Below are positions 1 through 63,719 of a DNA stretch of 63,719 nt, piece by piece. The translations under genes and the position numbers were made by a program. The notes below the pieces were generated by a model. It searched no databases. It saw nothing but the letters and a program-made list of their open reading frames with translations, and had not been told where the DNA came from. This DNA is from a virus, in IMG/VR virus record IMGVR_UViG_3300043331_000518, positions 1-63,719 of that record. One strand, 5' to 3'. The number at the start of each line of letters is the position of its first letter. Position 1 is the first letter of the stretch.

Positions 1-97
1 CACTCACGTACGCCATCATCCTCGTGCAGAGGCTCGACGCCGCGCATGAGGTGGTCTGGCAGATCGGCTACGTGATCGAGGACTACGGAATCTTCGA
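1..97. repeat. 97-bp terminal direct repeat, left copy
   Basis: These 97 bases are identical to 63623-63719. A gene reads through the junction without a frame change, so the contig is best read as a circle of about 63622 bp whose ends overlap. The exact, short overlap looks like an assembly overlap, but a physical terminal repeat cannot be excluded from sequence alone. Confidence 0.95.
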
Positions 98-43803: not shown

Positions 43804-44472
43804 ATGAAGAAGACACTGCTCTTGCTGTTGGCACTGCTGGCGCCCGCACTCGTGCAGGCCCAGGAGGCCACCGCCCTCGTCACTGCGTACCAGATCGACG
43901 GGACGACCTTCACCTGTTGCAGGACCAATCCGCAGGACATCTCTGGGGTGGGGAACATCAAGACCACCGGCTCTTCGACTACCGTGAACGCGGTGAGCGG
44001 GACGCCATTCGCTCCAGTGAGCACCGGAGATGTCATCACAGTCATGCCAGGGGCAGGGGCCTCGCCGGAGATACGGTACGTCGTCAACAAGGTGAGCAAC
44101 ATCCAGGTAACGGTGGACACCGCGGTCAACTGGGAGAACGGTGGGGCGGGGTTCAGTTTCGTGTGGCGGGACGTGAGGTGCGGGACGGGAGCCGAGGACG
44201 GTTGGGTGTCGGTTCCGCCGAACTCGACCCCGCAAGTGCAGATGTCCGTGAACGCCATCACCGGTACCTCGGTGGACTTCAAGATCGAGGGCCGGATCAG
44301 AGGTACGGCGGTTCAACCCGCGAACTTGGGGAACTTCAGCTACACCGCGGTGGGCGGCGACACCGTGAAGGTGCTCGACTTCGTGGATCAGCTACGGGTG
44401 TGCATGAAGATGACGGGTGACGCGGGTGGCAACGAGTCCATCTCGATCCATCTCTCGGGGAGGGTCTTCTGA
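43804..44472 (+). CDS. Late protein with Sec signal peptide (1)
   Basis: A 222-residue protein. MKKTLLLLLALLAPALVQAQ is a textbook Sec signal with cleavage after VQA. The mature part is all-beta, Thr/Gly/Val-rich, with several Cys. Stop overlaps the next signal-peptide gene (TGATG). Its place in the tail region suggests a fibre-associated or surface protein, yet export would take it out of the cytoplasm where virions assemble. Confidence 0.65.
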   Translation: MKKTLLLLLALLAPALVQAQEATALVTAYQIDGTTFTCCRTNPQDISGVGNIKTTGSSTTVNAVSGTPFAPVSTGDVITVMPGAGASPEIRYVVNKVSNIQVTVDTAVNWENGGAGFSFVWRDVRCGTGAEDGWVSVPPNSTPQVQMSVNAITGTSVDFKIEGRIRGTAVQPANLGNFSYTAVGGDTVKVLDFVDQLRVCMKMTGDAGGNESISIHLSGRVF

Positions 44473-45941
44473 TGAAGCGTTTGCTGCTCGGGCTCGCGCT
44501 TCTCCTCCTTCCTGCGGGGGTTGAAGCGCAGAACCCCTACGGGACGAAGGCGAACGAGACGCTCAAGCAGATGTTCACGCAGAGCGGGTACTTCGGTCCT
44601 CCGGGATCGGCTGCAGACCCGTTCGCCTGCACAGCCCAGACCAAGAGAAGTACCTACTACAACACCACCAGCGACACGATTCTGTACTGCAACGGGACCG
44701 CGTGGGGGGCATTGGGAGGTGGCGGTAGTCTTCCTGTCTCCGACTCCACTACCATCGTCTGCGACAACGCCGACCCCACGAAGTGCGTCCGCTTCGAGCT
44801 GAGCGGTATCGACACGGCTACGACTCGTGTGGTCACGCTCCCGAACGCCAACACCGTGATGGGGGTGCAGGAATCCGACTCCGGTGGCGCCGGCCACAAT
44901 ACGTGGTTTGGCAACCAGCTTTTTGCTTTCAACAACATCTTCTTGGGCACCTATCTCGCTGCCAACGGTGCCCAGACCCCGGACGTGTTCGCAATCCAGG
45001 CCGGGCTCAATGGGTTCAGCACCGGTGTCCTCATAATCGATCACGCGAACAGCACGTTCGACTTCGCTCATGCCGCTCCGGCGCACCCTACCCTCTGGAT
45101 TCACTCCGCAAACCAGAACACGACTCAGTGGATCGGCTTCAACCACGACGGCACGAACGGGCAGATCGCTACGGGAACTGGGGGCGTCAACTTCATCGCT
45201 GCAGGGACCAACGTCCGTATGTTCTGGGAGGGGGCCAACGTTGGGCTGTTGAATCTGAGTGCGGCACATGGGTACTGCATCTCCAGTGCTACCGCCCCGA
45301 CCAGCGCCGACGGTGACACTTGCTGGTACCGACAAGCGGCTGACCAGTTTCAGTTCGGAGAGGACAAGGCCACCCCAGACAACACCTGGATCAAGGCGGG
45401 GGATGGAAGCGGCACCAACGTTGTAGGCGCGGAGTTGGCACTGAGTGGTGGCGCCTCCACAGGTAACGCCCGTGGTGGCGCGCTGAGGCTACTCACCGCT
45501 CCATCTGGAGCCTCCAGCGGGACCCTCAACACTTCGCGCACCCGTGCGTGGTACGAGGCGCAGTGCGAGACGCTCACCGACAACACCGCGACCACGCTCT
45601 TTACCTATGCGCTCGGGAACGACACGGGGGGCGGGGGTACCGGCAACTACTGCGTACGCGCTCGCGATGCCACGAACGAGCAGGCGGAGTGTGGGGAGTT
45701 CCACTTCGCTGGGGTGGACATCACGGCGGGGGCCGGAGGCGAGACCTGCGTTACCCCCGCCAACAAGGACGGCTCTCTCCAGTCCCTATCAGCCGGCACC
45801 CTTGCCATCAGCTTTCAACAGTCTACGGGTACCGACCTCTGCAACGTTCGCGTCACCTCCGACACCTCGCTCACCACTACGCTCCACGAGATCTGCTGGG
45901 CCATCATCCACAACTACGGAACCACGATCACGCCTCAGTAA
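44472..45941 (+). CDS. Fibre-like protein with Sec signal peptide (2)
   Basis: A 489-residue protein. Signal MKRLLLGLALLLLPAGVEAQ, then DPFACTAQTKRSTYYNTTSD and YCNGTAWGAL, a short module also found in the gene at 61221. The remainder is a Gly/Thr/Asn-rich beta-fibre with a C-terminal head. Looks like a tail fibre or spike but with a leader for export. Confidence 0.6.
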   Translation: MKRLLLGLALLLLPAGVEAQNPYGTKANETLKQMFTQSGYFGPPGSAADPFACTAQTKRSTYYNTTSDTILYCNGTAWGALGGGGSLPVSDSTTIVCDNADPTKCVRFELSGIDTATTRVVTLPNANTVMGVQESDSGGAGHNTWFGNQLFAFNNIFLGTYLAANGAQTPDVFAIQAGLNGFSTGVLIIDHANSTFDFAHAAPAHPTLWIHSANQNTTQWIGFNHDGTNGQIATGTGGVNFIAAGTNVRMFWEGANVGLLNLSAAHGYCISSATAPTSADGDTCWYRQAADQFQFGEDKATPDNTWIKAGDGSGTNVVGAELALSGGASTGNARGGALRLLTAPSGASSGTLNTSRTRAWYEAQCETLTDNTATTLFTYALGNDTGGGGTGNYCVRARDATNEQAECGEFHFAGVDITAGAGGETCVTPANKDGSLQSLSAGTLAISFQQSTGTDLCNVRVTSDTSLTTTLHEICWAIIHNYGTTITPQ

Positions 45942-45951
45942 GGAGGTTTCG

Positions 45952-46425
45952 ATGTACAGGCTGCTTCTCTTCCTCGGGTTCCTTGGGCTGTTGGTGGGCC
46001 TCAGCCCTACCTCAGCACAGGCACAGGAGACGTACAACCTCAGCGCGAATGCGACGCAGGCGGCGGATCTGCGACAGCACGTGCTCGCGATGAATCGTGC
46101 CCTGTGCCGCGCAGCCCAGCTCCCGATCTCCTGTACGCAGGGCGATGTCTGCCTTGCCAGAAGTGTGGTGGGAGGAGCGAGTTGCACCGCCGCCAACGCT
46201 CGCGATGCCAACTCTCGCATCTGGCCCGACACCCAGGCTGGCCGCGAAGAGTTCGTCACCTTTCAGTGGGTGCTGCCGCGGTTCCTTGCGGCTCGTGGGA
46301 GCCTGCCCCAACTCCACATCGCGGATTACTGTGACTGGTTCAACAATGTGGCAAACCAGACCCAGCGCAACGCGGATTGCACCAAGATCGGTGCGCCCTC
46401 CCCCTGCACGATCTGCCCCCAGTAG
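45952..46425 (+). CDS. Late protein with Sec signal peptide (3)
   Basis: A 157-residue protein. Signal MYRLLLFLGFLGLLVGLSPT followed by SAQAQ; mature part is helical with eight Cys in pairs, so probably disulfide-bonded. AGGAGG before ATG. No family recognised. Confidence 0.6.
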   Translation: MYRLLLFLGFLGLLVGLSPTSAQAQETYNLSANATQAADLRQHVLAMNRALCRAAQLPISCTQGDVCLARSVVGGASCTAANARDANSRIWPDTQAGREEFVTFQWVLPRFLAARGSLPQLHIADYCDWFNNVANQTQRNADCTKIGAPSPCTICPQ

Positions 46426-46431
46426 GGCCTG

Positions 46432-46797
46432 ATGGACAGCGCCTGGAACTTCAAGGAGAGGGTCACGGATCGGGTGACCTTTGTTGTACGGGATTCGTCG
46501 GGCGCTGCCATTCCACAGGCCTCCTTGACCACCATCACGCTGACCCTCTACGACAAGCTTACCGACGGGATCATCAACTCGCGCAACGACCAGAACGTGA
46601 ACAACGCGAATCAGGTCACTATCGGCGCCGATGGCACCCTCGTGTGGGACACCGTCGCTGCGGACAACGCCATCATCAACCCGAACCTTGCCGTCGAAGA
46701 GCACGTGGCGCTCTTCGAGTGGACGTATAGCGCGGGCGCGAAGGCGGGCAAGCATGAGGCCATCATTCGCGTCGTGAACCTGGGGCAGGTGTCATGA
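46432..46797 (+). CDS. Small structural beta protein
   Basis: A 121-residue protein of Ig-like character: RVTDRVTFVVRDSSGAAIPQ, TTITLTLYDKLTDGIINSRN, VALFEWTYSAGAKAGKHEAI. ATG follows the previous stop closely. No family recognised; perhaps a tail accessory domain. Confidence 0.55.
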   Translation: MDSAWNFKERVTDRVTFVVRDSSGAAIPQASLTTITLTLYDKLTDGIINSRNDQNVNNANQVTIGADGTLVWDTVAADNAIINPNLAVEEHVALFEWTYSAGAKAGKHEAIIRVVNLGQVS

Positions 46798-47222
46798 GTA
46801 GCGCCGTTGTCGAGGAGCCGGAAGCGTCATTGGCGTCGAAGCAGCAGGAGCAGCAGCAGCTCGACTACCCACAGCGTCGCCACCCGGGACGACGCCGTGG
46901 CGACCCCCAGGGGATTCTCCGAAACGAGTGGGTGCGCAAGGCGCTATTGGGCCTCGCTGGTCTAGCAACCACTGCTGCCGGGTACTACTACGACCAGTAC
47001 CAGAAGGTGAAGCAGGACATCATCTCCCACTCCAGCGCGATCTACGAGGTTCGCAAGAACATCGAATTGCTGGAGGGCCGACTCAACCGTGTAGACGCGA
47101 ACAGTTCCGAGCAGCGTCGGGAGCTGAAGGAGGACATCAAGGAGGTGAAGGAGCAGCTCAACGACCTGAACACAAGCCTACGGCGTTGGTTCGAGCGTGC
47201 TGCCAACGAGAACCGCCGGTGA
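46794..47222 (+). CDS. Candidate inner-membrane spanin
   Basis: A 142-residue protein: 48 charged N-terminal residues, one membrane span (KALLGLAGLATTAAGYYYDQ, about 49-66) and a long coiled coil (80-135, HSSAIYEVRKNIELLEGRLN, LKEDIKEVKEQLNDLNTSLR). This topology fits an Rz-type spanin, although the N-terminal cytoplasmic part is long. It is coupled to the lysozyme gene (TGATG). No lipobox-bearing o-spanin is obvious nearby. Confidence 0.5.
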   Translation: MSSAVVEEPEASLASKQQEQQQLDYPQRRHPGRRRGDPQGILRNEWVRKALLGLAGLATTAAGYYYDQYQKVKQDIISHSSAIYEVRKNIELLEGRLNRVDANSSEQRRELKEDIKEVKEQLNDLNTSLRRWFERAANENRR

Positions 47223-47680
47223 TGGACGAGGCACGGCTTCGAGGCCAGCTTGCTGAGCATGAGGGGGTGCGGCGGTTTCCCTACAAGGACACTCTGGGGA
47301 AACTCACTATCGGTGTCGGTCGCAACCTTACCGATCGTGGCATCACCCCCGAGGAGGTCCACTTCCTATTGGCCCACGACGTGGCTATCGTGATCGAGGA
47401 TCTGGACCATCACCTGCCTTGGTGGCGGGCCCTGAGCGAAGTCCGACAGATGGTCTTGGCCGACATGTGCTTCAACCTTGGGGTCTCACGGCTACTTGGG
47501 TTCAGGAACACCTTGCAGATGCTCGCCTCAGGCAACTATGGAGGCACAGCCAAAGGTATGCTCCACTCGAAGTGGGCAAAGCAGGTGGGGCGCCGTGCTC
47601 GTCGATTGGCCCTCATGATGAAGCTCGATACCGAGGTGGCTCTCACCGAGGTAGATGAACTGTTCAAGCAACACTTCTAG
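47222..47680 (+). CDS. T4-type lysozyme (GH24 endolysin)
   Basis: A 152-residue protein. HEGVRRFPYKDTLGKLTIGVG contains the E14-x8-D23-x5-T29 catalytic triad of T4 lysozyme; the C-terminal half is helical with a Lys/Arg-rich region. It cuts peptidoglycan glycan strands at lysis. No signal peptide, so it depends on the holin at 47690. Confidence 0.85.
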   Translation: MDEARLRGQLAEHEGVRRFPYKDTLGKLTIGVGRNLTDRGITPEEVHFLLAHDVAIVIEDLDHHLPWWRALSEVRQMVLADMCFNLGVSRLLGFRNTLQMLASGNYGGTAKGMLHSKWAKQVGRRARRLALMMKLDTEVALTEVDELFKQHF

Positions 47681-47689
47681 GGAGATGAT

Positions 47690-48001
47690 ATGGACGCACA
47701 GGCAATCGCTGTCGTGTCCGGGTCGGTCGTCGCGCTGACGCAGCTCGTGAAGTGGATGGGGCTGGATGATCGCAGAGGGCCGTTTGCGGTGCTCGCCCTG
47801 TCCGGTCTCGGGACCATCATCTGGGCCATCTCGCGTGAGGTGCCCTTTGTGAGGACCGAGCTGTTCACCTTCTTCACCGGCTGGATCATGGTGTCCCTGG
47901 CCGCAGCGGGGGTCTTCGGCTTCACTCGTGCAATGCCCGAGGCCGTGACCAGAACCAAGACGCCGCCGCTTGGAGGCGCGGGCAGCTCCCCCACCATCTA
48001 G
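47690..48001 (+). CDS. Holin
   Basis: A 103-residue protein with three hydrophobic spans (about 5-20, 33-48 and 62-86) and a basic C-terminal end, 9 bases after the lysozyme. This fits a holin that releases the lysozyme. Confidence 0.65.
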   Translation: MDAQAIAVVSGSVVALTQLVKWMGLDDRRGPFAVLALSGLGTIIWAISREVPFVRTELFTFFTGWIMVSLAAAGVFGFTRAMPEAVTRTKTPPLGGAGSSPTI

Positions 48002-48003
48002 AC

Positions 48004-48261
48004 ATGGCGGAAGAGGAAGGACAGGACAGGGTCGATGCGCGGGCTGGCTTGGGGGCCATGCCGCGTCAACTTCGTGGTGTGAACCGCGAGGACGACCCAG
48101 GGTCCATCCCTCCTGACCAGCACTACGACCTCGTGAACGTGCGCAGCATCAATGGGCATTGGCATGTGAGGGGCGGTCAGAGCAAGGCACACGTAGCCGC
48201 CCTCTCTGGTGAGATCTTCGGCATCTTCGACGAAGAATCTAGCCTCGTGGACCTTGCCTGA
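48004..48261 (+). CDS. Truncated paralogue of the next tail protein
   Basis: An 85-residue protein. Residues 25-85 match residues 18-80 of the following gene (shared DPGSIP, VRGGQSKA, LSGEIFGIFDEE-type blocks). It has an intact frame and GTG-free ATG start, and its stop overlaps the next start. A stand-alone duplicate of an N-terminal domain, perhaps a regulator or chaperone of its parent. Confidence 0.6.
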   Translation: MAEEEGQDRVDARAGLGAMPRQLRGVNREDDPGSIPPDQHYDLVNVRSINGHWHVRGGQSKAHVAALSGEIFGIFDEESSLVDLA

Positions 48262-49514
48262 TGGCACGAATCGACCACCGTGTTGGGTTCAACCAGCGGG
48301 GCCCGATCCGTGGGGTGAGCCGCACGGGGGACCCTGGTTCCATCCCCGACAGCCAACTCTGGGACGCTGTCAACGTGAGGATAAACTCGCGAGGTCGGGT
48401 GTTCGTGAGGGGCGGTCAGAGCAAGGCGAACGTTGGGGCACTCACCGGGGAGGTCTTTGGCATCTTCGATGAAGAGGCAGCCTACTACGACTTGGAGGAG
48501 ACGGTCACGCCGCCTCCTGACATCGAGGTGGGTGTGTACCTGCTCCCACTAGCCGATGGCGACCCCCTGGGCCCCTGTCTCTTCATCGACGACGCCGACG
48601 TGCAAACGCAGCTCGACCCGGTTGGTGATGTGCCCGAGGGCGAGTGTCGCGGGTTCACCCAGACAACCCTCGGGATGTTCATGACCTCCGGCCTTAGCGA
48701 CTCCGCAGACGAAAGCCAGCTCAGCTTCATCAATGCGGTGGATCTCCTGGTCAACGAAGAGATCGAGTTCGTGAGGGCAGGAGCGATCGGGCCGCTCACA
48801 GGGCATCCTGGGCTAGGGGCCATCGTAGAGAAGAGCGGGGTTCTCTGGATACCCACCTCGGCTGAGGATGACGAGCTACAGATCTACAAGTACGAGAGCG
48901 GGGTCCTGAGCTTCGTGGACAGCGAAGTCTTGGCAGGTGACGATGGGAACCCAACCGACAGTCCCATGTGGGGGGCTCTCTTGGGCGACCATATCGTGAT
49001 GCGTGGGAAGCTGAACGACGATGGGGTGACGCTCACCTACTACGTGGCTACCTACCATACGGGGACCGGAGTGTGGACCCACTACGCGCTCCCTGCTGGG
49101 GAGATCATCCTCGGGTCACCATTCGTTGCCATCACCTTTGGTGCCAACGTCTATTTCTGGATCTCGGGTGGAAAGGTCTGCAAGTTCGACGGTTCTGCAG
49201 TGACAGTGGAGTACACAGCACCTGGAGGCACCACACCACCCACCGCCAACGCCTGGGTCCTGTACGGCGGCAACCTCTACACCGTCGCCAACCAGGGAGG
49301 CCAAGCCTTCCTTACTCGCTTCAACGGTTCAAGCTGGACTGAGGTGTTCACCTTCGATGTTGGACTCGGTGCGTGTGTCGGCCTCGCCACCGATGGCACC
49401 ACCATGTACGCCCTCTTCGGTGTGGATTACGCGAAGTCGGTTGATCCCGAGGTTGACTGGGACGACTTCGGTGTGGCTACCCAGTTCGCGTTCTTGGGGT
49501 TCAACGCAGCATGA
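48261..49514 (+). CDS. Tail structural protein
   Basis: A 417-residue protein. After the shared N-terminal block it is all-beta, with repeated Trp/Gly-containing blades (GVLWIPTSAEDDELQIYKYE, WTHYALPAGEIILGSPFVAI, AWVLYGGNLYTVANQGGQAF), suggesting a propeller. Stop overlaps the next gene. Probably a tail hub or stabilisation protein. Confidence 0.6.
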   Translation: MARIDHRVGFNQRGPIRGVSRTGDPGSIPDSQLWDAVNVRINSRGRVFVRGGQSKANVGALTGEVFGIFDEEAAYYDLEETVTPPPDIEVGVYLLPLADGDPLGPCLFIDDADVQTQLDPVGDVPEGECRGFTQTTLGMFMTSGLSDSADESQLSFINAVDLLVNEEIEFVRAGAIGPLTGHPGLGAIVEKSGVLWIPTSAEDDELQIYKYESGVLSFVDSEVLAGDDGNPTDSPMWGALLGDHIVMRGKLNDDGVTLTYYVATYHTGTGVWTHYALPAGEIILGSPFVAITFGANVYFWISGGKVCKFDGSAVTVEYTAPGGTTPPTANAWVLYGGNLYTVANQGGQAFLTRFNGSSWTEVFTFDVGLGACVGLATDGTTMYALFGVDYAKSVDPEVDWDDFGVATQFAFLGFNAA

Positions 49515-51172: not shown

Positions 51173-51954
51173 TGGCGTTTCGCGGTGTCGGCACTACCCA
51201 ACGCGCCCCTTCGGCTGGGGTTGGACAGGGGGTCCGAGGCCAAACCCCCGGACTCCTGCCGGCCCCGATCCTTTTTGGGGCTGGAACCACTCAGCCCCAG
51301 ACTCAAACCCTCACCTTCAGGCAGCCTGCAGCCGCAGCCCCTGCGGCTGCACCAGCCCCAGGTGCTGCCGGGTCCGCTGCGGTATCCTCGGCACCCAACC
51401 CGTACCTCCAGAACGTCTACCACGCCAACGTGCAGGACGCGAACACCACGCTCGGGGCCGACCCCCTGCTCACGGAGCAGGTACAGAACCTGCGTTCACG
51501 TATCAGCAACGACCCCACTCAGGCGGCAATCCGAGCGGCCACTGTGGGCATCGAGGACAACCTCGCGACCATGCTCCAGCGGAACAGGGAGCGTGCGGCA
51601 GCGATGGGCGGCTCAGGTGGTGGTGGCGAGATCGAAGGCGCCCAGAACCTCGAAGACGCGGCCAAGCGCGACATCGCGAGGGCCTCTACCGACATCGCGC
51701 TCAACCGCCAAGACGCCATCGATCGCCTGATCCTGGGGGGCAGCACCATCATGGCGGCTCCCGGGCAGCGTGAGATCCTTGGACGGCAGCTTCGGCAGGG
51801 CTCTCTCGCGCAGGCCGGCGCCGCCGCCTCCAACATCGCGGGAAACCAGCAGGCAGCACAGCAGTTCGGCGCCAACCTCGCCCAGGTTGAGGCAGAGATG
51901 GCGATGCAGCAGCAGCAAGCAATGCTGCAGCTCTACAACTCCCTCTGGAGGTAG
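51172..51954 (+). CDS. Ejection-type or tail accessory protein
   Basis: A 260-residue protein, Ala/Gln-rich helical, with low-complexity Pro/Ala stretch near 50-75 and a Gln-rich C-terminus (AEMAMQQQQAMLQLYNSLWR). Such helical, disordered proteins precede the big internal protein in podoviruses and may be ejected with DNA. Confidence 0.5.
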   Translation: MAFRGVGTTQRAPSAGVGQGVRGQTPGLLPAPILFGAGTTQPQTQTLTFRQPAAAAPAAAPAPGAAGSAAVSSAPNPYLQNVYHANVQDANTTLGADPLLTEQVQNLRSRISNDPTQAAIRAATVGIEDNLATMLQRNRERAAAMGGSGGGGEIEGAQNLEDAAKRDIARASTDIALNRQDAIDRLILGGSTIMAAPGQREILGRQLRQGSLAQAGAAASNIAGNQQAAQQFGANLAQVEAEMAMQQQQAMLQLYNSLWR

Positions 51955-51956
51955 CC

Positions 51957-52604: not shown

Positions 52605-52607
52605 GCC

Positions 52608-53513: not shown

Positions 53514-53527
53514 GAGGAGGTCTACTT

Positions 53528-56500
53528 TTGGGTCGGTACTTCGATCCTTCCGCGCCGACGTTCAAGCCTAGCGCGACGCCGAAGGAAGAGGACGAACCGG
53601 GCCTCATCGACCGTTACATCGCTCCCGCGTGGCGGTGGTTCACCTCTCCTATCCCTGCGATCCAGCGCAGTGCTGAACGCGACGCGACTGCCATCGAGGA
53701 GGCAGGGCTCCGGGCGATCGCACGAGGGGAAGAGGTGTTGCCGCCCACGGTCGGTGGGGCACTAAGAGGAGCAGCCGCGGGGGCCATTCGTGCGCTCCCT
53801 GACCTCTTCACACCGCTCGACATCGCAACACTTCCTCTTGCAGCAGCAGGACGTGGTCTTGGTCTGGGTACCAGAGCCGTCAAAGGACTTCGGGGGGCCG
53901 AGCGAGCAGCAGAGGTGGTTGGCGGTGGTGGGCTCGCCATCGAGGGTGCAGGGGATGTGGTTGAGGGTGTCAGGGAGGGGAACCTCGGCCAGATTGGACA
54001 GGGACTGTTTCGAGGGGGGATGGGAGCACTCCTCCTTCACAGCCCAGGACTGGAGCCGGCTCCTAGGGCAGCAGTGCCCGAAGTGTCTCAGTATCCGGCC
54101 CCCGTAGGCCCCCTGGCCCAAGCCCCCGACGTGTGGGGCGGGCCGAGCCCCGACTTCGCGCTGGAGCCTGCACCGCCCATCGACCTTGAGCCGGCGCTGG
54201 GGTCGATCTATGAAGGACCGCCCCCCGTAATCGATTTTGGGGTGGGTGCTCAGGCACCACCACCGCCCGCGGTTCCCACACTCCCCAACATTTACCGTGC
54301 CCCAGACGAGCCCCCGGTGATTCCTGAGAACTGGATGGTGGATCAGCCACTCGATGTGGGCCCCACCCTCCAGCTCGAACCCGTGCCTGACTTGGAGCTG
54401 CCGCCACCACTTCCTGACGTGTGGACTGGGGCAGTGCCGGAGGGGGCCGAGATCCCAACGCCTCTCGACATCCCGGTGGGGACCATCCCTGGGCCGCGAC
54501 TCGTTGGGCAGCCTGCGGAGATGGTCCGCATGTCACCGGCTGCCAGGGCCGCTGAGTTCCTTGAGCCGTTCGCCCCAGAAGCGGAGGTCGCCCAAGCGAT
54601 CGGTACGGTAAGGCCCCCTGGTAGGCGTGGTGGGGGTGATGAGGGTGGGGCACCGCCTGCGCCACCGGAAGCACCTCCTGCAGCACCTGCTCCTGCAGCA
54701 CCTGCTGCTGCCGCTGCTGCTCCCGGTGAGCTGACCGACGAGGATATGGGGCGCTTGCTGGAGACGATCGCGACACAAGGGCGAGAGCCGGCGCCCGCTC
54801 TGACGCCCGGTGACTCCCCATTCGCCACCCGCGTGCGCGAGATCGAGGAAACGATCCCGGCACCGTTTGTGGACAACCGTGGCAGTTTCCAAGAGGGGGC
54901 CCTCACCGCGGGCGACGCAATCAGCAAGCTCACACCAGCGGAAGATGTAGCCGACCTGGGAGGTGGCGTCTTCAGCTACAAGACCGCGGGCGGTGGCCCA
55001 ACCACCTACACTTACCGCGGTGCTGACGGCAAGACACGGTCCATGGCGATCTTGGGCGAGGACGGCTCCATTCAAGAGATCGCAGCCGATCAGATCGGGT
55101 CGCCATCGATGGGGCGCCTGCTTCACACGCTGCTCCGCGAGGCGCCCAACCTCCGCGTTCCACAGCTCATCTCCCCAGACACTCGCAAGCTGATCGCACG
55201 CACGCTAGCGAAGGCTGAGGTTCCTATCGAGGCAGTCCGTGGGTGGGTCGCTGCCGGGATCGACCAAGTCCCGCTCCGTGATATACTCGCTACCGGCAGG
55301 AGGGGTGGCGATGTCATTGCTGGAAGAGCTGGACGCCGAGCTGCAACCGAGGCAGGGGGAGTCTCCGGAGCAGCACCAGAAGCGGGCGGACGAGGTGCTC
55401 TCGAACCCAGCCCTGCAGTTGGTGCTCTTGCTGACGAAGGCATCACCGCAGGAGCGCGAGGAGTTCCTGAAAGACCTGGAGTCGGAGGGGTCGCAACCGC
55501 CCCCGCCCCCGAACCAAGCCCCCTAGGAGCCCCACCCGCCGCCGCTACCGCGGCTCCTACCCAGGCCACCCTCTTCGAGGGGGTGGAGCCCACCCGCATC
55601 CCAGGTCCCGTTCCCCCTCGTGTCCGCGAGAGGCTCGTGCAGCGGGGTGATGCAGCTCTCGCCCGCCTTCGGGCCCGTGGTACTCAGGCTCAAGCCTTCG
55701 ATATCACCAAGGCCTTCAGTGAAGGTGGAGCTGCCCTCGCAGACTTGATCGATTACGGTGCCTCTCGCGCCGCGCTCCACGGCTACGATTTCGCGAAGTG
55801 GGCCGCGGACATGATTCAACAGTTCGGAGAGAAGATCAGGCCACGACTCCGTGCGTTGTGGGACGAGTCAAGCAGCCGTGCTGGCCTGACCCGTCGTGAG
55901 GACTTCGACTTCCTACGGAAGGATGCGACGGGGCGTGCTATCGGTGCTCCCCCAACTATCACCGACAAACGATCGTTGAACCAGCTCATCACCAACCTCG
56001 CGAAGATGGCCCGTGAAGGGGCGGTTGGCAAGGACTGGTACGAGAACAGCTCGAAGCGCATCCTCGACCTCGCACAGGGCAACAAGGAGGACGCCGAGAA
56101 GATCGCACAGCTCATCGCGATCTACTCACCCAACACTCCAGTGCCGGCCAACTGGAACGACGCCATGCAGGCATGGCACCAATTCAAGGCCGGTCAGCCG
56201 ATCAAGGCCGGGAAGTTTGGTGCCATGGATGAACGGGCTCGCAAGCTTCTGTACGAAGGTCAGGACTGGCGTGGCGCCAAGACCAACAACTTCTACCGCA
56301 ACCTAATGACGGTGATCGACCCTGAGGGCAAGGGGCATCCCTCGAACCTCGGTACCACGGTCGATGTCCACATCATGCGATCGCTCGGGTACGACGTGGA
56401 TGCACCGAGCACTCAGCAGTACATTTGGGCTGACAACCTGTTCGGTCGTATTGGCGAGAAGCTCGGGTTGGCTCCACATCAGGTACAAGCTGCTGTGTGG

Positions 56501-59500
56501 ACCGCCCAGAAGGGCATCCGCGACGAGAGCGGAAAGCTCCAGTCGTTCGACTTCAGCAACGCGGCAGCCCAGTCCACCGCACAGATCTCGTGGGAAGCAA
56601 CGCCACACCCGACCACAGGAATCCTCCCAGGGATTCACTCGGCCCCCTATGAGCTTCGTCAGCAGTATGCGAACGCGATCCACGACGCGCTCTTTGACGA
56701 GAACGGTGTGGACGAGCTGGCGACGGCGCTTGGGTTGCTACGCCAAGGTGACTTCAGCGGCCCTGGGTTCTACAAGGGTGAGACCAACCCCGGGTTCCAG
56801 CTCGAAGTCCAGGCACCCCCAAAGCAGTACGCGCGCCCCAAGACGCCTGCGATCGACCCCAGTGCTGAGGGGCTAATCCGCAAGTACGCTGCCGCGCTCG
56901 GTCACCTGCTTCACCAGGAAGCCGTCGCCTACCATCGTCCCTTCTTCAAGGCAGGCACCAAGGCATCGAACGGTGTTGAGTTCGACATGGGCCGTACCAT
57001 CACCAACGATGAGCTGCTCGGTGTGTACCAAGCACTCGACCAGACCGGCATCAAGCCTGAGCTGAAGGACTCCCTAGCTCTAGTCCCTTCAGCCAAGGGC
57101 CTCCGTGTGCTAAACTTCGGGATTGAGGACAACGCGGTCTTCCACCGTGTCATACAGGAGGCGTTCGAGGCTGGCACTCCTCAGGACGTACAGGCCAGCG
57201 CGAAGCTCTTCGCGTCGGTGGGAGACCTCGTAGGGAACGATTGGAAGGCGGCACCGAATGGGCAAGGTTACATCGATCTCTACAGCGGAGCAGGGGGACC
57301 CGATCTACGAGGAGTCGTGGACCGTATTTCCGGGCGCGTCTCCGAAGTCAACTCCCGCTTCGCCCGTGAGCATGGGTGGGACCGTGCCCCCACAGCCCCC
57401 GAACCCACAGCCGCCCCAGCCGCCCCCACCCCTACTGGAGCCGGCGCCAGTGCCGACATCGAGTCCCTCTTCGCCCGCCTCGACCGAGAACCTCCTGCCG
57501 AAGGGTTCCTAGCCACAGTCGATCGGATGGCGGGTGAGGCCCAGGCCCGCCTGCAATCCCGTGCGCGCGCCCAGATGTCGATGGGTGCCGACCCCACCAT
57601 CATCTCGGACCTCGGGCTGGTAGGCGCCTCTTGGCTTGCCCGTGGCGTCCGGTCACTGGGTGAGTTCACCTCCAAGCTGGTCTCCAGCTTCGGAGAGTGG
57701 GCAGGTAGGCTGGCCCAACAGGCGTGGGACGCAGCCAGCGGCTTGCTTCGTGGGCTCGTTGGAGGTGAACGTGCTACCACAGTACAGCCGACTCCTGGGG
57801 CTGGTGGCGCTGCTGCCCCCGCTGCTCCTGCTCCTCTTGCTCCCAGCCCAGGTGGCGGAGCGCCTGTTGCACCGGGCCCGGGTGCAGGCCCGTCCACTCC
57901 CACCCCCCGCCGTGGTGTGCCCCCCGAGCCTGCCGCCTTCAACCCCCGAGGTTCCGATGCTGGTACTCCCCGAGTCACTCCTACCGAGGCAGGACGGATC
58001 GGGGCAGCAGCAGTGGCTCCCGGCCCTACCCCCGAGGGGAAGCCCAGTGGAACCCCCGAGTTCGATATCAACACGGAGAGGATCAGCCGAGATGGTAGGC
58101 TAGCCGACTTCGTTGCGAAGAGTGTGGGGGCGGCGCCCGAGAAGTTCGGACCCGTGGCCGGTGGTGCTCGTGGACGCAAGCGGTCGTGGGATGAAGTGCG
58201 CGCCCGTGCTATCGAGCTGAACCTGAACGTCGATGACGTGCTGAAGGCGTTCAGACGGAAGGGCGGGTTCCTCTCCGATGTTGAGATGGAGGGTGCCTCG
58301 ATCCTGCAGAAGGAGTACGCGGACTCGGCCCTCGATCGGTTGAGGAAGGCCGATGAGGCTGCAGCCGGCGGGCGCCAGGATGAGGCCTCGATCCTTCGGG
58401 ACCTCTACACTGCTGACGTGGCCTCAATGGCAGCGACCAACTATGCCTTGATCGGAGCCCGCAGTGAGGCTGCACGTGCGCTTGCCATCTCGCGGAAGCT
58501 GAGTGAGGGGCTGAGCCCGGAAGAGCGCGCCTACGCCACCATCCTGCGCTCCCTGGGGCCCGACAAGGGGCGCCTCGACGACGCGTTCCGTCGAGAGTTC
58601 TTCGACGCGATGATGCGGAAGGACTATCACAAGGCACAGCAGCTCTCACGTGACGTATTCAAGCCGACACTGATGCAGAAGATCGTGGAGGTCTGGAAGG
58701 CAGGGCTGCTCTCAGGACCACCGACCCAGATCGTCAACTTTGGCTCAACTGGGGTGAAGACCTCGGCCATCGACCCACTCGAAGCCACCATCGCTGGGTT
58801 GCTCGACTCGATGAAGGTGAAGGACCCTGCTCTCAGGACCCGGTTCGCAGGCGAGGGGAAGGCCATGCTGCGGGGAGCATGGGCTGCTCGGGACGCAGCA
58901 CTCAAGGGTCCCGATGGGCTGCTCCAAGCCCTAAAGGACGTGTTCAGCTTGCAGTTCGAGGGCAAGGAGTTCGCGCGAGATATCGCGAGTGGTGTGTCGG
59001 GGGGCAAGTTCGAGCACACTGGGAAGATTGGTGGCAGGTTCGGAGAGGCCGTCAGGATTCCATTCAACCTCCTCACTGCAGCCGACAACTTCTGGAAGAC
59101 CATCGCCAGGAATCAAGAGCTGTGGCGACAGGCCTACGTAGACGCGAGCAAGAAGGGGCTCACAGGAGACGCCCTCGAAGCTGCCATGAAGGAATCGGTT
59201 GAGAGCTTCGTGAGCGGGAGCCATCCCAACCAGGAGGCCCTCCGTATTGCAATGGAGAACGCCGCCCTCAACGGGACCTTCCAGAAGAAGATGGGGTCCC
59301 TCGGGACCGCCGCCTCCAACCTCACCAACGCACATCCGTTCCTCAGCTTCTTCGCCCCATTCATCAAGACCCCGGTGAACATCGCCAAGGAGACCGCGAT
59401 CAGGACTCCCGCGGGGCTCGCCTACACACTGCTCCAGAAGAACCGGGGCAAGATCACTGACGAGAAGTTCATCAAGGATCTGGCATCAGGTGTGTTCGGG

Positions 59501-60439
59501 ACCACGCTCGGAGCCCTCCTTTACTTCATGAACAAGGAAGGGGATCTCATCACTGGTGGTGGACCCACCGATCCTGAAGAGAACCAAAACCTGCAGGACA
59601 CCGGATGGCGCCCGTACTCGGTGAAGATCGGCGACCGCTACGTCAGCTACCAGCGCTTGGAGCCGCTCAGCTCGCTGATGGGCTTCATCGCGGACAGCAA
59701 GGAGCTGGAGGACACGGGCACCATCACGGAGGCGGTCGAGAAGATCGGCGGCTCCGTAATGGAGAACATGCTCAACAAGACATTCTTGGCTGGGCTCACT
59801 GGGCTCACCACGTTCCTCCACGACCCGAAGCGATACGGGAAGCAGTTCGCCCGTCAGCTTGAAGGGAGCATGGTGCCGGCTCTCGTCGGGAAGGGTACGC
59901 AGGCTCTCGATCCAGTAGTCAGGGTGACCGACCCGTTCGAGCTAATCCACGGCATCCCAGAGCCCATCGCGGCACGGCTGCCTGGGCTCAGTGAAGAGTT
60001 GCCGGCACGGCGTACACCGATCGGTGAGGATCGCGAGCGGGTAGGGTCAGCCTTGGAGCGGTTCGCCAACCCGTTCACAGTGAGTCAGGAGAAGCAGGGC
60101 CCCCTGGCCGATGTCCAGCGCGAGTTCGCGCGGCTTGGGAGGTCACCCGATCAGCCCAAACGAGAGCATCGAGTAGGGGGTGGCAAGAAGCTTACCCTGG
60201 ACGACCGCGAGTACAAGATCCTGCAGGACACCTACCAAGGCGCGGCCGATCGGGTGTCCAAGCTCATCAGGACCAGCTACTACAAGAATTTGCCCGACGA
60301 TGAAGACGAGGCACGACCTGGGCAAGAGACCAAGTGGGACGCCATCCTGAAGATCTATCGCGCAGCCCGTGACCGTGGGAGGATGAGGCTCTACCAGGAC
60401 CCGAAGTTCCGGGTTCGGGCACGCAAGGAGGCACGATGA
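53528..60439 (+). CDS. Giant internal virion / large polyvalent-type protein
   Basis: A 2303-residue protein, more than a tenth of the genome. TTG start after AGGAGGTCTACT. The N-terminal 600 residues alternate Pro/Ala-rich linkers and short helical blocks. A globular region near 780-1100 has FYRNLMTVIDPEGKGHPSNL and LGTTVDVHIMRSLGYDVDAP, then LGLAPHQVQAAVWTAQK, a layout I associate with large polyvalent proteins. From about 1500 on comes the helical module with the LLSGPPTQIVNFGST motif common in internal virion proteins of podoviruses and crAss-like phages. Probably ejected with DNA and active early. Three A/P-rich linkers are also open in other frames. Confidence 0.75.
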   Translation: MGRYFDPSAPTFKPSATPKEEDEPGLIDRYIAPAWRWFTSPIPAIQRSAERDATAIEEAGLRAIARGEEVLPPTVGGALRGAAAGAIRALPDLFTPLDIATLPLAAAGRGLGLGTRAVKGLRGAERAAEVVGGGGLAIEGAGDVVEGVREGNLGQIGQGLFRGGMGALLLHSPGLEPAPRAAVPEVSQYPAPVGPLAQAPDVWGGPSPDFALEPAPPIDLEPALGSIYEGPPPVIDFGVGAQAPPPPAVPTLPNIYRAPDEPPVIPENWMVDQPLDVGPTLQLEPVPDLELPPPLPDVWTGAVPEGAEIPTPLDIPVGTIPGPRLVGQPAEMVRMSPAARAAEFLEPFAPEAEVAQAIGTVRPPGRRGGGDEGGAPPAPPEAPPAAPAPAAPAAAAAAPGELTDEDMGRLLETIATQGREPAPALTPGDSPFATRVREIEETIPAPFVDNRGSFQEGALTAGDAISKLTPAEDVADLGGGVFSYKTAGGGPTTYTYRGADGKTRSMAILGEDGSIQEIAADQIGSPSMGRLLHTLLREAPNLRVPQLISPDTRKLIARTLAKAEVPIEAVRGWVAAGIDQVPLRDILATGRRGGDVIAGRAGRRAATEAGGVSGAAPEAGGRGALEPSPAVGALADEGITAGARGVPERPGVGGVATAPAPEPSPLGAPPAAATAAPTQATLFEGVEPTRIPGPVPPRVRERLVQRGDAALARLRARGTQAQAFDITKAFSEGGAALADLIDYGASRAALHGYDFAKWAADMIQQFGEKIRPRLRALWDESSSRAGLTRREDFDFLRKDATGRAIGAPPTITDKRSLNQLITNLAKMAREGAVGKDWYENSSKRILDLAQGNKEDAEKIAQLIAIYSPNTPVPANWNDAMQAWHQFKAGQPIKAGKFGAMDERARKLLYEGQDWRGAKTNNFYRNLMTVIDPEGKGHPSNLGTTVDVHIMRSLGYDVDAPSTQQYIWADNLFGRIGEKLGLAPHQVQAAVWTAQKGIRDESGKLQSFDFSNAAAQSTAQISWEATPHPTTGILPGIHSAPYELRQQYANAIHDALFDENGVDELATALGLLRQGDFSGPGFYKGETNPGFQLEVQAPPKQYARPKTPAIDPSAEGLIRKYAAALGHLLHQEAVAYHRPFFKAGTKASNGVEFDMGRTITNDELLGVYQALDQTGIKPELKDSLALVPSAKGLRVLNFGIEDNAVFHRVIQEAFEAGTPQDVQASAKLFASVGDLVGNDWKAAPNGQGYIDLYSGAGGPDLRGVVDRISGRVSEVNSRFAREHGWDRAPTAPEPTAAPAAPTPTGAGASADIESLFARLDREPPAEGFLATVDRMAGEAQARLQSRARAQMSMGADPTIISDLGLVGASWLARGVRSLGEFTSKLVSSFGEWAGRLAQQAWDAASGLLRGLVGGERATTVQPTPGAGGAAAPAAPAPLAPSPGGGAPVAPGPGAGPSTPTPRRGVPPEPAAFNPRGSDAGTPRVTPTEAGRIGAAAVAPGPTPEGKPSGTPEFDINTERISRDGRLADFVAKSVGAAPEKFGPVAGGARGRKRSWDEVRARAIELNLNVDDVLKAFRRKGGFLSDVEMEGASILQKEYADSALDRLRKADEAAAGGRQDEASILRDLYTADVASMAATNYALIGARSEAARALAISRKLSEGLSPEERAYATILRSLGPDKGRLDDAFRREFFDAMMRKDYHKAQQLSRDVFKPTLMQKIVEVWKAGLLSGPPTQIVNFGSTGVKTSAIDPLEATIAGLLDSMKVKDPALRTRFAGEGKAMLRGAWAARDAALKGPDGLLQALKDVFSLQFEGKEFARDIASGVSGGKFEHTGKIGGRFGEAVRIPFNLLTAADNFWKTIARNQELWRQAYVDASKKGLTGDALEAAMKESVESFVSGSHPNQEALRIAMENAALNGTFQKKMGSLGTAASNLTNAHPFLSFFAPFIKTPVNIAKETAIRTPAGLAYTLLQKNRGKITDEKFIKDLASGVFGTTLGALLYFMNKEGDLITGGGPTDPEENQNLQDTGWRPYSVKIGDRYVSYQRLEPLSSLMGFIADSKELEDTGTITEAVEKIGGSVMENMLNKTFLAGLTGLTTFLHDPKRYGKQFARQLEGSMVPALVGKGTQALDPVVRVTDPFELIHGIPEPIAARLPGLSEELPARRTPIGEDRERVGSALERFANPFTVSQEKQGPLADVQREFARLGRSPDQPKREHRVGGGKKLTLDDREYKILQDTYQGAADRVSKLIRTSYYKNLPDDEDEARPGQETKWDAILKIYRAARDRGRMRLYQDPKFRVRARKEAR
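55260..55287 (+). promoter_or_regulatory. Promoter-like element inside the giant gene
   Basis: TCGACC (55260-55265), 16-base spacer, TATACT (55282-55287), immediately before the ribosome site and ATG of the nested gene 55311-55526. The -35 is weak; the combination is notable. Confidence 0.35.
55311..55526 (+). CDS. Nested gene inside the giant ORF, other frame
   Basis: A 71-residue acidic helical protein (SLLEELDAELQPRQGESPEQ, EFLKDLESEGSQ, Pro-rich end). ATG is preceded by AGGAGGGG at proper spacing, and by a promoter-like pair of boxes. Codons are strongly G/C-ending, whereas the overlapping giant frame here reads a low-complexity Gly/Ala/Arg linker with A/T-ending codons. Composition is that of an ordinary small protein, not of a frame-shifted linker. 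Overprinting is the simplest reading. Confidence 0.5.
   Translation: MSLLEELDAELQPRQGESPEQHQKRADEVLSNPALQLVLLLTKASPQEREEFLKDLESEGSQPPPPPNQAP
57771..58103 (+). CDS. Possible second nested gene (membrane/Pro-rich)
   Basis: A 110-codon frame with GTG five bases after GGAGG. It encodes a hydrophobic segment (LLGLVALLPPLLLLLLLPA) followed by a Pro-rich basic region, the general look of an Rz1-like o-spanin but without a lipobox. The parent frame is an Ala/Pro repeat here, and CTG/CTC runs in an alternate frame of such repeats give Leu runs for free, so this may be an artefact. Confidence 0.25.
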   Translation: MLPQYSRLLGLVALLPPLLLLLLLPAQVAERLLHRARVQARPLPPPAVVCPPSLPPSTPEVPMLVLPESLLPRQDGSGQQQWLPALPPRGSPVEPPSSISTRRGSAEMVG

Positions 60440-60873
60440 GCACAGTACCCACGAGCCTCCAAAGGTTGGTTCCGCCGCCTCCAGACGTGCGCCTCATGGA
60501 CCAACGCACCGCCTTGGCCGAGATATACCGATGGCTGAAGCGGGTGCAGGATTCCATCGCAGGACCCCCGCCTCGGCATGGGATCTCCCACGACGTGGAC
60601 CTCACTACAGGCGGTACCGATCCCCTGAGCTACGGGATGCCTGGAGAGTTGGCCGACGAGACCGAGATGGGGGATGGGCCTGGGCCGACCCTTGCAGGTC
60701 ATACCCACAAGCGGCAGATCGAGGTGGAGGAGAACGGGACGCCCGTGGGTATTCGGCGCAAGCTCAACTTCATCGGAGCAGTCGTGACCGACGACCCAGG
60801 TGGCGATGAAGTCGATGTCACCATCGACGACAGCGAGGCAGCAGCGGCGCGCTATCTTGCGTGGGTGCTGTAG
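60436..60873 (+). CDS. Fibre-module protein, 145 residues
   Basis: N-terminal helix (RTALAEIYRWLKRVQDSI) likely trimerises. The C-terminal part reads EENGTPVGIRRKLNFIGAVV, a module also present at the end of the gene 61221-62168 (EEEGTPLTQRSTLNFVGGSI). Typical of phage receptor-binding or fibre-attachment proteins. Confidence 0.6.
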   Translation: MSTVPTSLQRLVPPPPDVRLMDQRTALAEIYRWLKRVQDSIAGPPPRHGISHDVDLTTGGTDPLSYGMPGELADETEMGDGPGPTLAGHTHKRQIEVEENGTPVGIRRKLNFIGAVVTDDPGGDEVDVTIDDSEAAAARYLAWVL

Positions 60874-61224
60874 GTGGCTGGGCTCCTTCCAGGCAGGACC
60901 AAGGCCACCCTCACCGGGACGACCCCAGTGACGTTGGTGGCTTCGCCCGCGTCCGGGTGGACACGCACGGTGCTGTCCTGTCGATGGAACAACCCCGACA
61001 CTGTAGGCCACGACTTCATCCTTCAGCACAACGATGGAGGTGGGGCCACCGAGGTGGATCGGCAGGACGGTACGGTACCGGAGGGGACGTGGATACCGAT
61101 CTCGCGGGACAACCCAATCATCCTCAAGCCTACAGACACACTGCTCGGAGTGATCGACGCAACCCACACGACCACCGCTCCGGTGGTCATCACCTCGTGG
61201 ATCGATCAGGAGGACATTCCGTGA
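60874..61224 (+). CDS. Small beta protein, 116 residues
   Basis: GTG start just after the previous stop. Beta-rich (ATLTGTTPVTLVASPASGWT, WIPISRDNPIILKPTDTLLG), perhaps a fibre accessory or jelly-roll domain. Stop overlaps the next gene. Confidence 0.55.
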   Translation: MAGLLPGRTKATLTGTTPVTLVASPASGWTRTVLSCRWNNPDTVGHDFILQHNDGGGATEVDRQDGTVPEGTWIPISRDNPIILKPTDTLLGVIDATHTTTAPVVITSWIDQEDIP

Positions 61225-62168
61225 GGAAACTGCTCGTGGTGATCCTGGTGGTGGCTGGGCTGGCGGTTGGGCAGGTGGAGGCGCAGACTACCATCCTTGT
61301 ACCCTCGCGCGCGTCCGACCCGTTCACCTGCACAGCATCGAAGCGAGGAAACGTCTACTTCAACACCACCGATGGGAAGCTCAGGCAGTGTGACGGTACG
61401 GCGTGGGTCAACCTAGAGTTGGAGGGTGGTGGGGGTGGTGGGGCACCTACCGATGCCACCTACTTGACTCAGACTACGCACGCTGGGCTGAGTGCCGAGC
61501 AAGCGATGGGGCTGCTCGGGACGGGGCTGGTTCGCAACACCACCACCACAGGGGTCCAGACCATCTACACAGGAACCTCCTGCACCAACCAATTCCCGAG
61601 GAGCTTGGATGCCTCTGGGGTGGCAACGTGCGCATCGGTAGCCGATGCTGACCTCGCATCGAACTACAGCGGGGTGGGTACCTGTACCAACCAGTTCGCC
61701 CGCGTCCTGAACGACAACGCGGCACCGACGTGCTCCAGCGTGCTCACGGCCGACATCAACGACGATCAGGTGGTCTATGCGAAAATCCAGAACGTGGCTG
61801 CAGATGACCGGTTCCTGGGCAGGATCTCTGGGGCGGGAGGGGACATCGAAGAGCTGACTGGAACGCAGGCAACCACCCTACTCGATGTCTTCACCTCAGG
61901 GCTGAAGGGGCTAGCCCCAGCATCGGGAGGGGGGACCACGAACTTCCTGCGTGCAGACGGGACATGGACGGCGCCGCCTGGGGACGGGGTAGGCTACGCC
62001 ACCATTGAAGAGGAAGGGACACCACTCACCCAACGAAGCACCCTAAACTTCGTGGGGGGCTCCATCACCTGTGCTGACTCTGGGGGGAAGACGGTATGCA
62101 CCCTGAGCGGCGGTGGCGGCGGGCTCGACCATGCAGCGGTGATGAGCCGCTCTAGCTTGAGGTTCTGA
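61221..62168 (+). CDS. Fibre-like protein with Sec signal peptide (4)
   Basis: A 315-residue protein. Signal MRKLLVVILVVAGLAVGQVE then AQ; next DPFTCTASKRGNVYFNTTDG, CDGTAW (shared with 44472). In the middle two tandem repeats start CTNQFPRSLDASGVATCASV and CTNQFARVLNDNAAPTCSSV, then the fibre motif GGGTTNFLRADGTWTAPPG. These are common phage fibre elements, here on a protein with an export signal. Confidence 0.7.
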   Translation: MRKLLVVILVVAGLAVGQVEAQTTILVPSRASDPFTCTASKRGNVYFNTTDGKLRQCDGTAWVNLELEGGGGGGAPTDATYLTQTTHAGLSAEQAMGLLGTGLVRNTTTTGVQTIYTGTSCTNQFPRSLDASGVATCASVADADLASNYSGVGTCTNQFARVLNDNAAPTCSSVLTADINDDQVVYAKIQNVAADDRFLGRISGAGGDIEELTGTQATTLLDVFTSGLKGLAPASGGGTTNFLRADGTWTAPPGDGVGYATIEEEGTPLTQRSTLNFVGGSITCADSGGKTVCTLSGGGGGLDHAAVMSRSSLRF

Positions 62169-63433
62169 TGAGGAAGCTGACCGCGGTTGTCGTGCTCTTG
62201 GCCTTGCTACTGAGTGGGGCGCCCCGCCCCGCCCAAGCCAACTCGCTTCTCCTCGACGCCACCACCAAGAGCCTGGAGATGGAGACGGGAACGGCCTCCT
62301 CGACCGATTACGTGGTTGCGTATGCGGACCACACCAGCTCGGCGTTCACCCCTGGTATGAACCAAGGCAACGTCGCCTCGGCCACCACTACCACGATCCT
62401 GGCCGCACCGGCTGCCAGCACCCAGCGTCAGGTAAAGTGGGTCTCCGTCCGCAACCGCTCGACCACGGCCCCACAGACCGTGACCCTTAAGCTCGACGTG
62501 AGTGCGACGGAGTACCACATCGGACCGGCTGTCACCTTGGGAGCGGGCGAGGCCCTGCGCATGGACGCGGATGGGGCACTGACCATCTTCACCGCGGCGG
62601 GAATACAAAAGACCCAGGCCACCGACATCAACGGGTACAACGGGGAAGCCTACAGCTACTTCAAGGTGGGGACGGCGGCGGAGGCTGCCGGCCAGTTCTA
62701 CAGCTTCGCCAAGGACGCAGGCACTCCCGGGGCGTGGGTTCCGGGGACGCCCGGAATCAACGGTGATGCGTTGTCCTGCGACACCGCCGCCGACGCGACG
62801 ATCGCGGGCGCGCACGTCATTCCCGATCCGGCGTCGGGCTCGTTCTACCTCACCGACATCGGGTGGGGCAGCACGGTGGCGCACCTGTACCAGTTCACTG
62901 ACCTCGTCTGGTACAACACCGGCATCGCCGTCACCACCACCACGGGGCAGAACATCACACAGCCGACGCTCCCGGCCCGCGACCTGAATGGCACCAACAA
63001 CGGGGACGGTTGGGTGGCTGCCATCTATGTCACCACGGCCACCACCAACGCCGGGGCGGTCACCAACACCACGCTGACCTACACGGACAGTGACGGGAAC
63101 GCCGGCAACACCGGCACCATCGCCTCCTTCCCGGCGACTGCCGTAGCTGGGACGCTGGCGCCGTTCCGCCTCGCAGCCGGTGATCGCGGCATCCGCTCGA
63201 TCCAGACCATCACGCTCGGCACCAGCTACGGGGGAGGTGCAATCTCGCTGATTCACTACCGCAAGCTGGCGTCCATCCCTCACCCGCTGGCCCTCGTTGG
63301 GGCAGTATCGCCCTCGTTCGGGCCACCGGGCATTCGGCTCTACAACGACACCTGCCTGTGGGGACCCATCTACCTCGCTTCTGCAACGACAGTCACCGCG
63401 GTGGCGGGGACCGTTTCAATCATGGAGAGATAA
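62168..63433 (+). CDS. Late protein with Sec signal peptide (5)
   Basis: A 421-residue protein. Signal MRKLTAVVVLLALLLSGAPR ending PAQA; mature part is Thr/Ala/Gly-rich beta sheet with a C-terminal region (GGGAISLIHYRKLASIPHPL) that reads like a receptor-binding head. ATG overlaps the previous stop. Confidence 0.65.
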   Translation: MRKLTAVVVLLALLLSGAPRPAQANSLLLDATTKSLEMETGTASSTDYVVAYADHTSSAFTPGMNQGNVASATTTTILAAPAASTQRQVKWVSVRNRSTTAPQTVTLKLDVSATEYHIGPAVTLGAGEALRMDADGALTIFTAAGIQKTQATDINGYNGEAYSYFKVGTAAEAAGQFYSFAKDAGTPGAWVPGTPGINGDALSCDTAADATIAGAHVIPDPASGSFYLTDIGWGSTVAHLYQFTDLVWYNTGIAVTTTTGQNITQPTLPARDLNGTNNGDGWVAAIYVTTATTNAGAVTNTTLTYTDSDGNAGNTGTIASFPATAVAGTLAPFRLAAGDRGIRSIQTITLGTSYGGGAISLIHYRKLASIPHPLALVGAVSPSFGPPGIRLYNDTCLWGPIYLASATTVTAVAGTVSIMER

Positions 63434-63435
63434 CG

Positions 63436-63719
63436 ATGAAGACCAGGATGATCCCCCTCGCTGCTCTCGCGCTCGTGCTGTTCGTGCTCCCCACCGCTGC
63501 CTTCGCCGGCCAAGTCTACACGGAGGGCGCGCAGACCTTCCCCGCTGCCGGGACGGTCATGGCCGAGACGCCGCACCTGGGAGCGGACTCCGACTACGAG
63601 TTCCGCGTCACCACGGGGGCGCCACTCACGTACGCCATCATCCTCGTGCAGAGGCTCGACGCCGCGCATGAGGTGGTCTGGCAGATCGGCTACGTGATCG
63701 AGGACTACGGAATCTTCGA
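63436..63719 (+). CDS. Late protein with Sec signal peptide (6), N-terminal part
   Basis: MKTRMIPLAALALVLFVLPT then AAFA is a clear Sec signal; the mature protein begins GQVYTEGAQTFPAAG. The gene leaves the window at 63719 and continues at position 1 (see 1-362) to give 182 residues. Function unknown. Confidence 0.65.
   Translation, partial: MKTRMIPLAALALVLFVLPTAAFAGQVYTEGAQTFPAAGTVMAETPHLGADSDYEFRVTTGAPLTYAIILVQRLDAAHEVVWQIGYVIEDYGIF
63623..63719. repeat. 97-bp terminal direct repeat, right copy
   Basis: Identical to 1-97; supports a circular or terminally redundant genome of about 63622 bp. Confidence 0.95.

Follow-up and report, generated by a model that had tools for sequence, protein, structure and literature searches.

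Predicted Sec export of fibre-like late proteins in a tailed phage, and a possible route of fibre assembly outside the cytoplasm

Introduction

Tailed-phage virions are taught to assemble wholly in the cytoplasm. The phage genome analysed here raises the question of what Sec signal peptides would be doing on fibre-like proteins encoded among its late genes. The original prediction was that at least six late, fibre-like proteins carry such leaders, and that these proteins might form a surface or periplasmic layer, be attached to the virion after lysis, or block superinfection.

The genome and its late genes

The window, by which is meant the whole stretch of DNA that was analysed, is a complete IMG/VR record, 63,719 bases long. 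Its two ends (1-97 and 63623-63719) are exact direct repeats of 97 bp, which indicates that the record is a closed, complete circle, though it is listed as linear. A simple gene caller finds about 80 genes in the window, including 30 late genes, and no tRNA genes were found there. A DNA-level search for the nearest phages gave no near relative of the window; a near-identical fragment of it, L061 (the prefix L denotes loci from other sources throughout), occurs in another record. Cellular contamination was ruled out by the closed circles and by the hallmark phage genes that the window and many of the relatives described below contain. The following landmarks lie on the late strand.

32116, late strand, terminase
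35446, late strand, portal-like protein
39338, late strand, major head protein (phrog_14242)
43128, late strand, connector-like gene
47222, late strand, lysozyme (PF00959)
49511, late strand, virion protein, phrog_511-like
53528-60439, late strand, 2303-aa protein with a TTG start and zero cysteines, probably an internal virion or polyvalent protein

Leaders on six late proteins

A rule-based test finds strong Sec leaders in exactly six of the roughly 80 genes. Their starts, as originally predicted, are correct, and every one is followed by a charged, hydrophobic leader. The six genes and two neighbours that bear on the argument are listed below; proteins with such leaders are called exported on the strength of this prediction.

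43804..44472, + strand, predicted exported protein 1, 222 aa; leader MKKTLLLLLALLAPALVQA followed by Q; 4 mature Cys
44472..45941, + strand, predicted exported fibre-like protein 2, 489 aa; leader MKRLLLGLALLLLPAGVEA followed by Q; 12 mature Cys
45952..46425, + strand, predicted exported Cys-rich protein 3, 157 aa; leader MYRLLLFLGFLGLLVGLSPTSAQA followed by Q; 8 mature Cys (6%)
60436..60873, + strand, leaderless Cys-free 145-aa protein, candidate virion-side adaptor
60874..61224, + strand, leaderless 116-aa protein, candidate adaptor; 4-bp overlap with 61221 (start placed at 60970 by the in-house caller)
61221..62168, + strand, predicted exported fibre protein 4, 315 aa, GTG start; leader MRKLLVVILVVAGLAVGQVEA followed by Q; 8 mature Cys
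62168..63433, + strand, predicted exported fibre-like protein 5, 421 aa; leader MRKLTAVVVLLALLLSGAPRPAQA followed by N; one Cys pair (C204, C396)
63436..63719, + strand, predicted exported protein 6, first part; leader MKTRMIPLAALALVLFVLPTAAFA followed by G; 2 mature Cys
1..362, + strand, remainder of protein 6, past the point where the circle closes; bases 1-97 are the same as the last 97 bases of the window

The last gene resumes past the 97-bp terminal repeat, at window bases 98 to 362, and the joined protein has 182 aa. Each of the six proteins has the charged n-region, hydrophobic core and V/A-x-A site of a substrate of Sec and signal peptidase I. The cleavage sites, which were assigned by rule and not by SignalP, are in gene order VQA/Q, VEA/Q, AQA/Q, VEA/Q, AQA/N and AFA/G, so that the ending Ala-x-Ala that had been ascribed to all of the leaders holds for three, the other three being V-x-A. 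Signal peptide prediction on each protein, the check that had been proposed, gave rule-based scores of 14.4 to 16.7; the only other genes to score are 20105 (7.7) and 29659 (12.0, lipoprotein-like leader). No shadow ORF among 323 and no shuffled N-terminus among 4000 scored 14 or more, and on this background an origin of the leaders by chance was rejected. Wrong start codons were likewise rejected, as each of the six genes has ATG or GTG and either carries a sequence resembling a ribosome-binding site or slightly overlaps the upstream gene. All six fall within the 30 late genes (hypergeometric p = 0.002), where they form two contiguous runs of three (43804/44472/45952 and 61221/62168/63436). 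From their sequences, the six genes very probably encode genuine Sec (signal peptidase I) substrates that are exported. Outside the late cluster, the gene at 29659-30150 has a lipoprotein-like leader ending in FFSCS, and its product is a possible outer-membrane spanin.

Cysteines of the exported proteins

Since leaders alone are predictions, independent marks of extracytoplasmic life were sought in the content and parity of cysteine. In Gram-negative bacteria, the cysteines of exported proteins tend to be even in number, which is thought to limit wrong disulfides (PMC7678975). Cysteine makes up 2.18% of the six mature exported proteins versus 0.35% of the products of the other late genes (p = 2e-12), and the mature counts, in gene order 4, 12, 8, 8, 2 and 2, are even in six of six cases. 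The six proteins thus show both features of periplasmic disulfide proteins, an even number of cysteines and enrichment over cytoplasmic proteins.

Two comparisons of exported with leaderless proteins follow the same pattern. A GTPxxxRxxLNFxG motif is common to the C-terminal part of leaderless 60436 and to exported 61221 (48% over 31 aa, E 0.008), and the Cys pair that follows it in 61221 is absent from 60436. A homologue of 62168 in L009, which is exported and about 45-50% identical, keeps both cysteines, whereas in a homologue that has no leader (L063, MW202795.1) they are replaced by N and A. A third comparison, a swap of C for W at TNFLRADGTW between exported and leaderless proteins, was set aside as too few sequences bear on it (three have C, all with a leader, and three with W are also exported).

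Relationship to tail fibres

The protein encoded at 61221 contains, as had been claimed, the CTNQF cysteine-pair repeat twice and the TNFLRADGTW domain once. Over residues 139-224 it aligns with the fibre of cyanophage P-SCSP1u (gp28, PDB 8i4m, 86 residues, E 2.3e-4). It is thus a homologue of a fibre observed on a virion, and very likely a fibre itself. It has a post-leader module, DPFxCTA..YxNTT..xxCxGTAW, in common with 44472 (45% over 53 aa), and 44472 has weak PHROG matches to virion proteins. A PDB sequence search gave no match for 44472 or 62168. Two AlphaFold models, one of 62168 and one of 45952, are of low confidence, with mean pLDDT values of 46 and 53 between them, too low to infer a function, and the single-sequence model of 45952 is poor; in the low-confidence model of 62168 an N-terminal beta-sandwich matches viral collagen-repeat proteins, and the model has no structural match in the PDB. 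No relationship to fibres was found for 43804, 45952 or 63436, and 43804, with no PHROG or Pfam match, has an identical copy in L061 only. Among viral contigs, no relatives of 62168, 44472, 43804, 60436 or the capsid protein were found except in L061 and, for 62168, in L009.

Fibre identity thus has good support for 61221 and moderate support for 44472 and 62168; 61221 at least, and probably 44472 and 62168, are tail-fibre pieces moved to an export route. The prediction of fibre-like late proteins with Sec leaders is supported, and strengthened by cysteine content and parity, by the leaders of the relatives with the cysteine repeat described below (31 of 31) and by the matches to solved virion fibres.

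Relatives of 61221 in other phages

Viral contigs were searched for relatives of 61221 with peptide patterns that lie outside the leader, which gave 59 loci. The Cys-pair repeat CTNQF...ATC (residues 106-152 of 61221) occurs in 31 distinct proteins, that of the window included, from diverse tailed phages; 25 of them have strict leaders, six have N-termini that are hydrophobic but off the strict rule, and none is leaderless. The TNFLRADGTW domain (residues 175-256) occurs in 21 proteins, of which 19 are leaderless and two have a leader. This difference in leader association gives a Fisher p of 3e-12, or 4e-7 counting strict leaders alone, values that are only indicative because related sequences are not independent. 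The cysteine count is even in 23 of 25 leader-bearing relatives versus 103 of 263 Cys-containing leaderless genes of the same loci. It is very probable that fibre-like proteins leave the cytoplasm and become disulfide-bonded in this phage and in many unrelated ones.

Several of the relatives have features of their own. Short charge-free leaders of the form MxxxLLLxLxQ, which may be the signal peptide of an unusual host, stand on Cys-rich fibre proteins at L005:210, L009:7602, L017:5714 and L021:3583, and gene 30504 of the window also bears a leader of this type. Very long exported fibres occur in L039, L043, L048, L050, L052-L054, L056 and L058, several being rich in ATSTF-like repeats that resemble those of surface proteins of Patescibacteria. 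L039, L048 and L052 have in common a leaderless Cys-free protein just upstream of the exported fibre, which is collagen-like in L048. At L045:7238-13510, five consecutive genes, at least four with leaders and one with a PKD domain, directly precede a portal gene. L062:5104-10918 is the tail end of a prophage in an Acidobacteriota MAG, where two leader-bearing genes (939 and 708 aa) adjoin host genes; this related prophage does not fix the host of the window.

Gene order and candidate adaptors

Leader-bearing relatives occupy tail-fibre positions in gene clusters of podo-, sipho- and myovirus type. In L028 and L040 the exported gene follows baseplate wedge genes, and in L025 and L047 it stands between genes of connector/nozzle type and genes of internal-virion type; in L065 it is preceded by a central-fibre-J-like gene, and in L062 by a tail-tip-like one. 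The contigs of L018, L025, L036, L043, L045 and L056 also carry major head, portal, tape-measure or internal-virion genes.

The exported proteins lack a virion-attachment domain at the N-terminus of the same chain, where the leader lies, and no docking interface was identified. The gene directly upstream of the exported one is often leaderless, encodes few cysteines or none, and overlaps it or ends within a few bases of it. In L047, the gene for the exported fibre is overlapped by a leaderless 115-aa gene whose product aligns with residues 1-114 of the one-chain leaderless fibre of L027 (E 1.6e-11) and, at a weak level, with the N-terminus of T4 gp10 (E 0.04); the attachment-type domain of L047 thus sits in a separate leaderless gene. 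Together, the leaderless upstream genes and the L047 match suggest a fibre in two pieces, an adaptor that stays in the cytoplasm and a distal part that is exported. In the window, 60436 and 60874 are candidates for such adaptors, and 60874 has no family match in PHROG or Pfam. Inspection of two complete genomes, G004 (L040) and G007 (L043), revealed no other long fibre.

Comparison with known phages

Relatives are found in two cultured phages, namely gp19 of Burkholderia phage BcepC6B, annotated as a tail fiber, and gp35 of Xanthomonas phage PBR31, a putative structural protein. Like the window proteins, both have leaders (MKKLIAILLAVPALALG and MKKLIALFSLFCTSAFG, respectively, each followed by A) and an even number of mature cysteines; the leaders go unremarked in the literature found on these proteins. 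In its tip domain, BcepC6B gp19 is homologous to the virion tail fibre of Pectobacterium phage PhiM1 (PDB 8vbx, E 9e-16), which is gp47 (PMC11440229). The gene neighbourhoods of the podovirus fibres P-SCSP1u gp28 and PhiM1 gp47 are similar to those of the exported fibres. The leaderless fibres of CB5 and KpV74 have the same tip as BcepC6B gp19 but are single chains with an N-terminal domain of their own, whereas the exported proteins have a Sec leader at the N-terminus, added Cys pairs and possibly separate adaptors. In BcepC6B, PBR31 and L009, a leaderless tail spike or fibre is encoded alongside the exported protein, which therefore cannot be the sole receptor-binding protein in these phages.

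Sec-exported tail fibres were not found described in the open-access literature, most subscription journals lying outside the scope of the search. The exported phage proteins met there were Spackle, Lom and signal-peptide endolysins. T4 Spackle (gp61.3) is a periplasmic protein with a cleaved leader and a disulfide (PMC7650644). Unlike the window proteins, it is a lysozyme inhibitor of 97 aa that is not fibre-like and is encoded outside fibre gene clusters, and PHROG and Pfam searches of the window gave no match to it or to a lysozyme-inhibitor fold. Lambda Lom, too, is exported, and its gene lies in the tail region (PMC12309495). It differs from the window proteins in being an outer-membrane beta-barrel that is not related to fibres; no Pfam match to a Lom/Ail beta-barrel domain was found in the window proteins, the models of 62168 and 45952 being of low confidence.

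A possible route of fibre assembly

The sequence evidence covers predicted leaders, a signature of paired cysteines, fibre homology and gene order. A scheme that would account for it is as follows. The six proteins would be synthesised late in infection, and the distal fibre would be secreted by Sec through the inner membrane with removal of the leader, after which the paired cysteines would be oxidised in the periplasm. Heads and tails would be assembled in the cytoplasm as usual, and the virion would already bear the short adaptors without leaders, for which 60436 and 60874 are candidates. Once the holin opened the inner membrane, virions would meet the oxidised fibre parts and docking could occur, so that the fibre would be assembled last and outside the cytoplasm. 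Late docking is feasible in that P22 tailspikes and T4 tail fibres can join otherwise complete particles in vitro.

We put the probability of this explanation as a whole, comprising export, oxidation and docking of fibres after membrane opening, at about 0.5. Leader cleavage and cysteine oxidation in the six proteins are presumed from the features described above, and docking on the virion after the inner membrane opens has a little under an even chance. Among the fates that had been proposed, the leaderless adaptor-like genes upstream and the lack of another long fibre in some complete genomes favour attachment after lysis. Tentatively, a widespread set of tailed phages may split the fibre into a tail-assembled leaderless adaptor and a Sec-exported, disulfide-locked distal fibre that are joined after membrane opening.

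The main rival to docking is that the exported proteins block superinfection. They would coat the cell or be shed as decoys that mask the receptor, never joining the virion, and as a result further phages could not adsorb and progeny would not stick to debris. Fibre tips would make good receptor blockers, Spackle provides a related case of an exported phage protein, and the coexistence of exported fibres with leaderless spikes in BcepC6B, PBR31 and L009 also speaks for this explanation. It is nevertheless unlikely, if still to be taken seriously, given that the six genes are interleaved with structural genes, that leaderless fibre-type adaptors lie directly upstream in relatives, and that there are complete genomes with no other evident fibre. 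Alternatively, the proteins could be adhesins or conversion factors that modify or decorate the host surface in lysogeny or when an infection is long. Lom, likewise encoded between tail genes, would be a comparable case, and the L062 prophage, with two such genes beside host genes at its end, would fit. This is improbable, as the Pfam search gave no sign of a beta-barrel in the window proteins and their relatives are virion fibres. That the leader is instead a retained hydrophobic N-terminus, serving as a tail anchor or a cytoplasmic trimerisation plug, might be read from the short charge-free leaders of four relatives (L005, L009, L017 and L021; for example MTLALLLVLGQ), but is very improbable in view of the charged n-regions, the V/A-x-A sites with Q, N or G as the next residue, the enrichment and even parity of cysteine that mark oxidised exported proteins (method in PMC7678975), and the loss of the Cys pair in the leaderless homologue of 62168.

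Implications

If fibres are routinely exported and oxidised, as the docking scheme supposes, their folding would depend on the Sec and Dsb systems of the host, the fibres would gain disulfide stability, and the last step of assembly would shift to lysis. The CTNQF...ATC repeat offers a simple sequence marker for exported fibres in metagenomes, and a signal peptide alone is insufficient reason to discard a gene as encoding a non-virion protein. As a similar arrangement exists in BcepC6B and PBR31, both of them cultured phages, the question is testable now.
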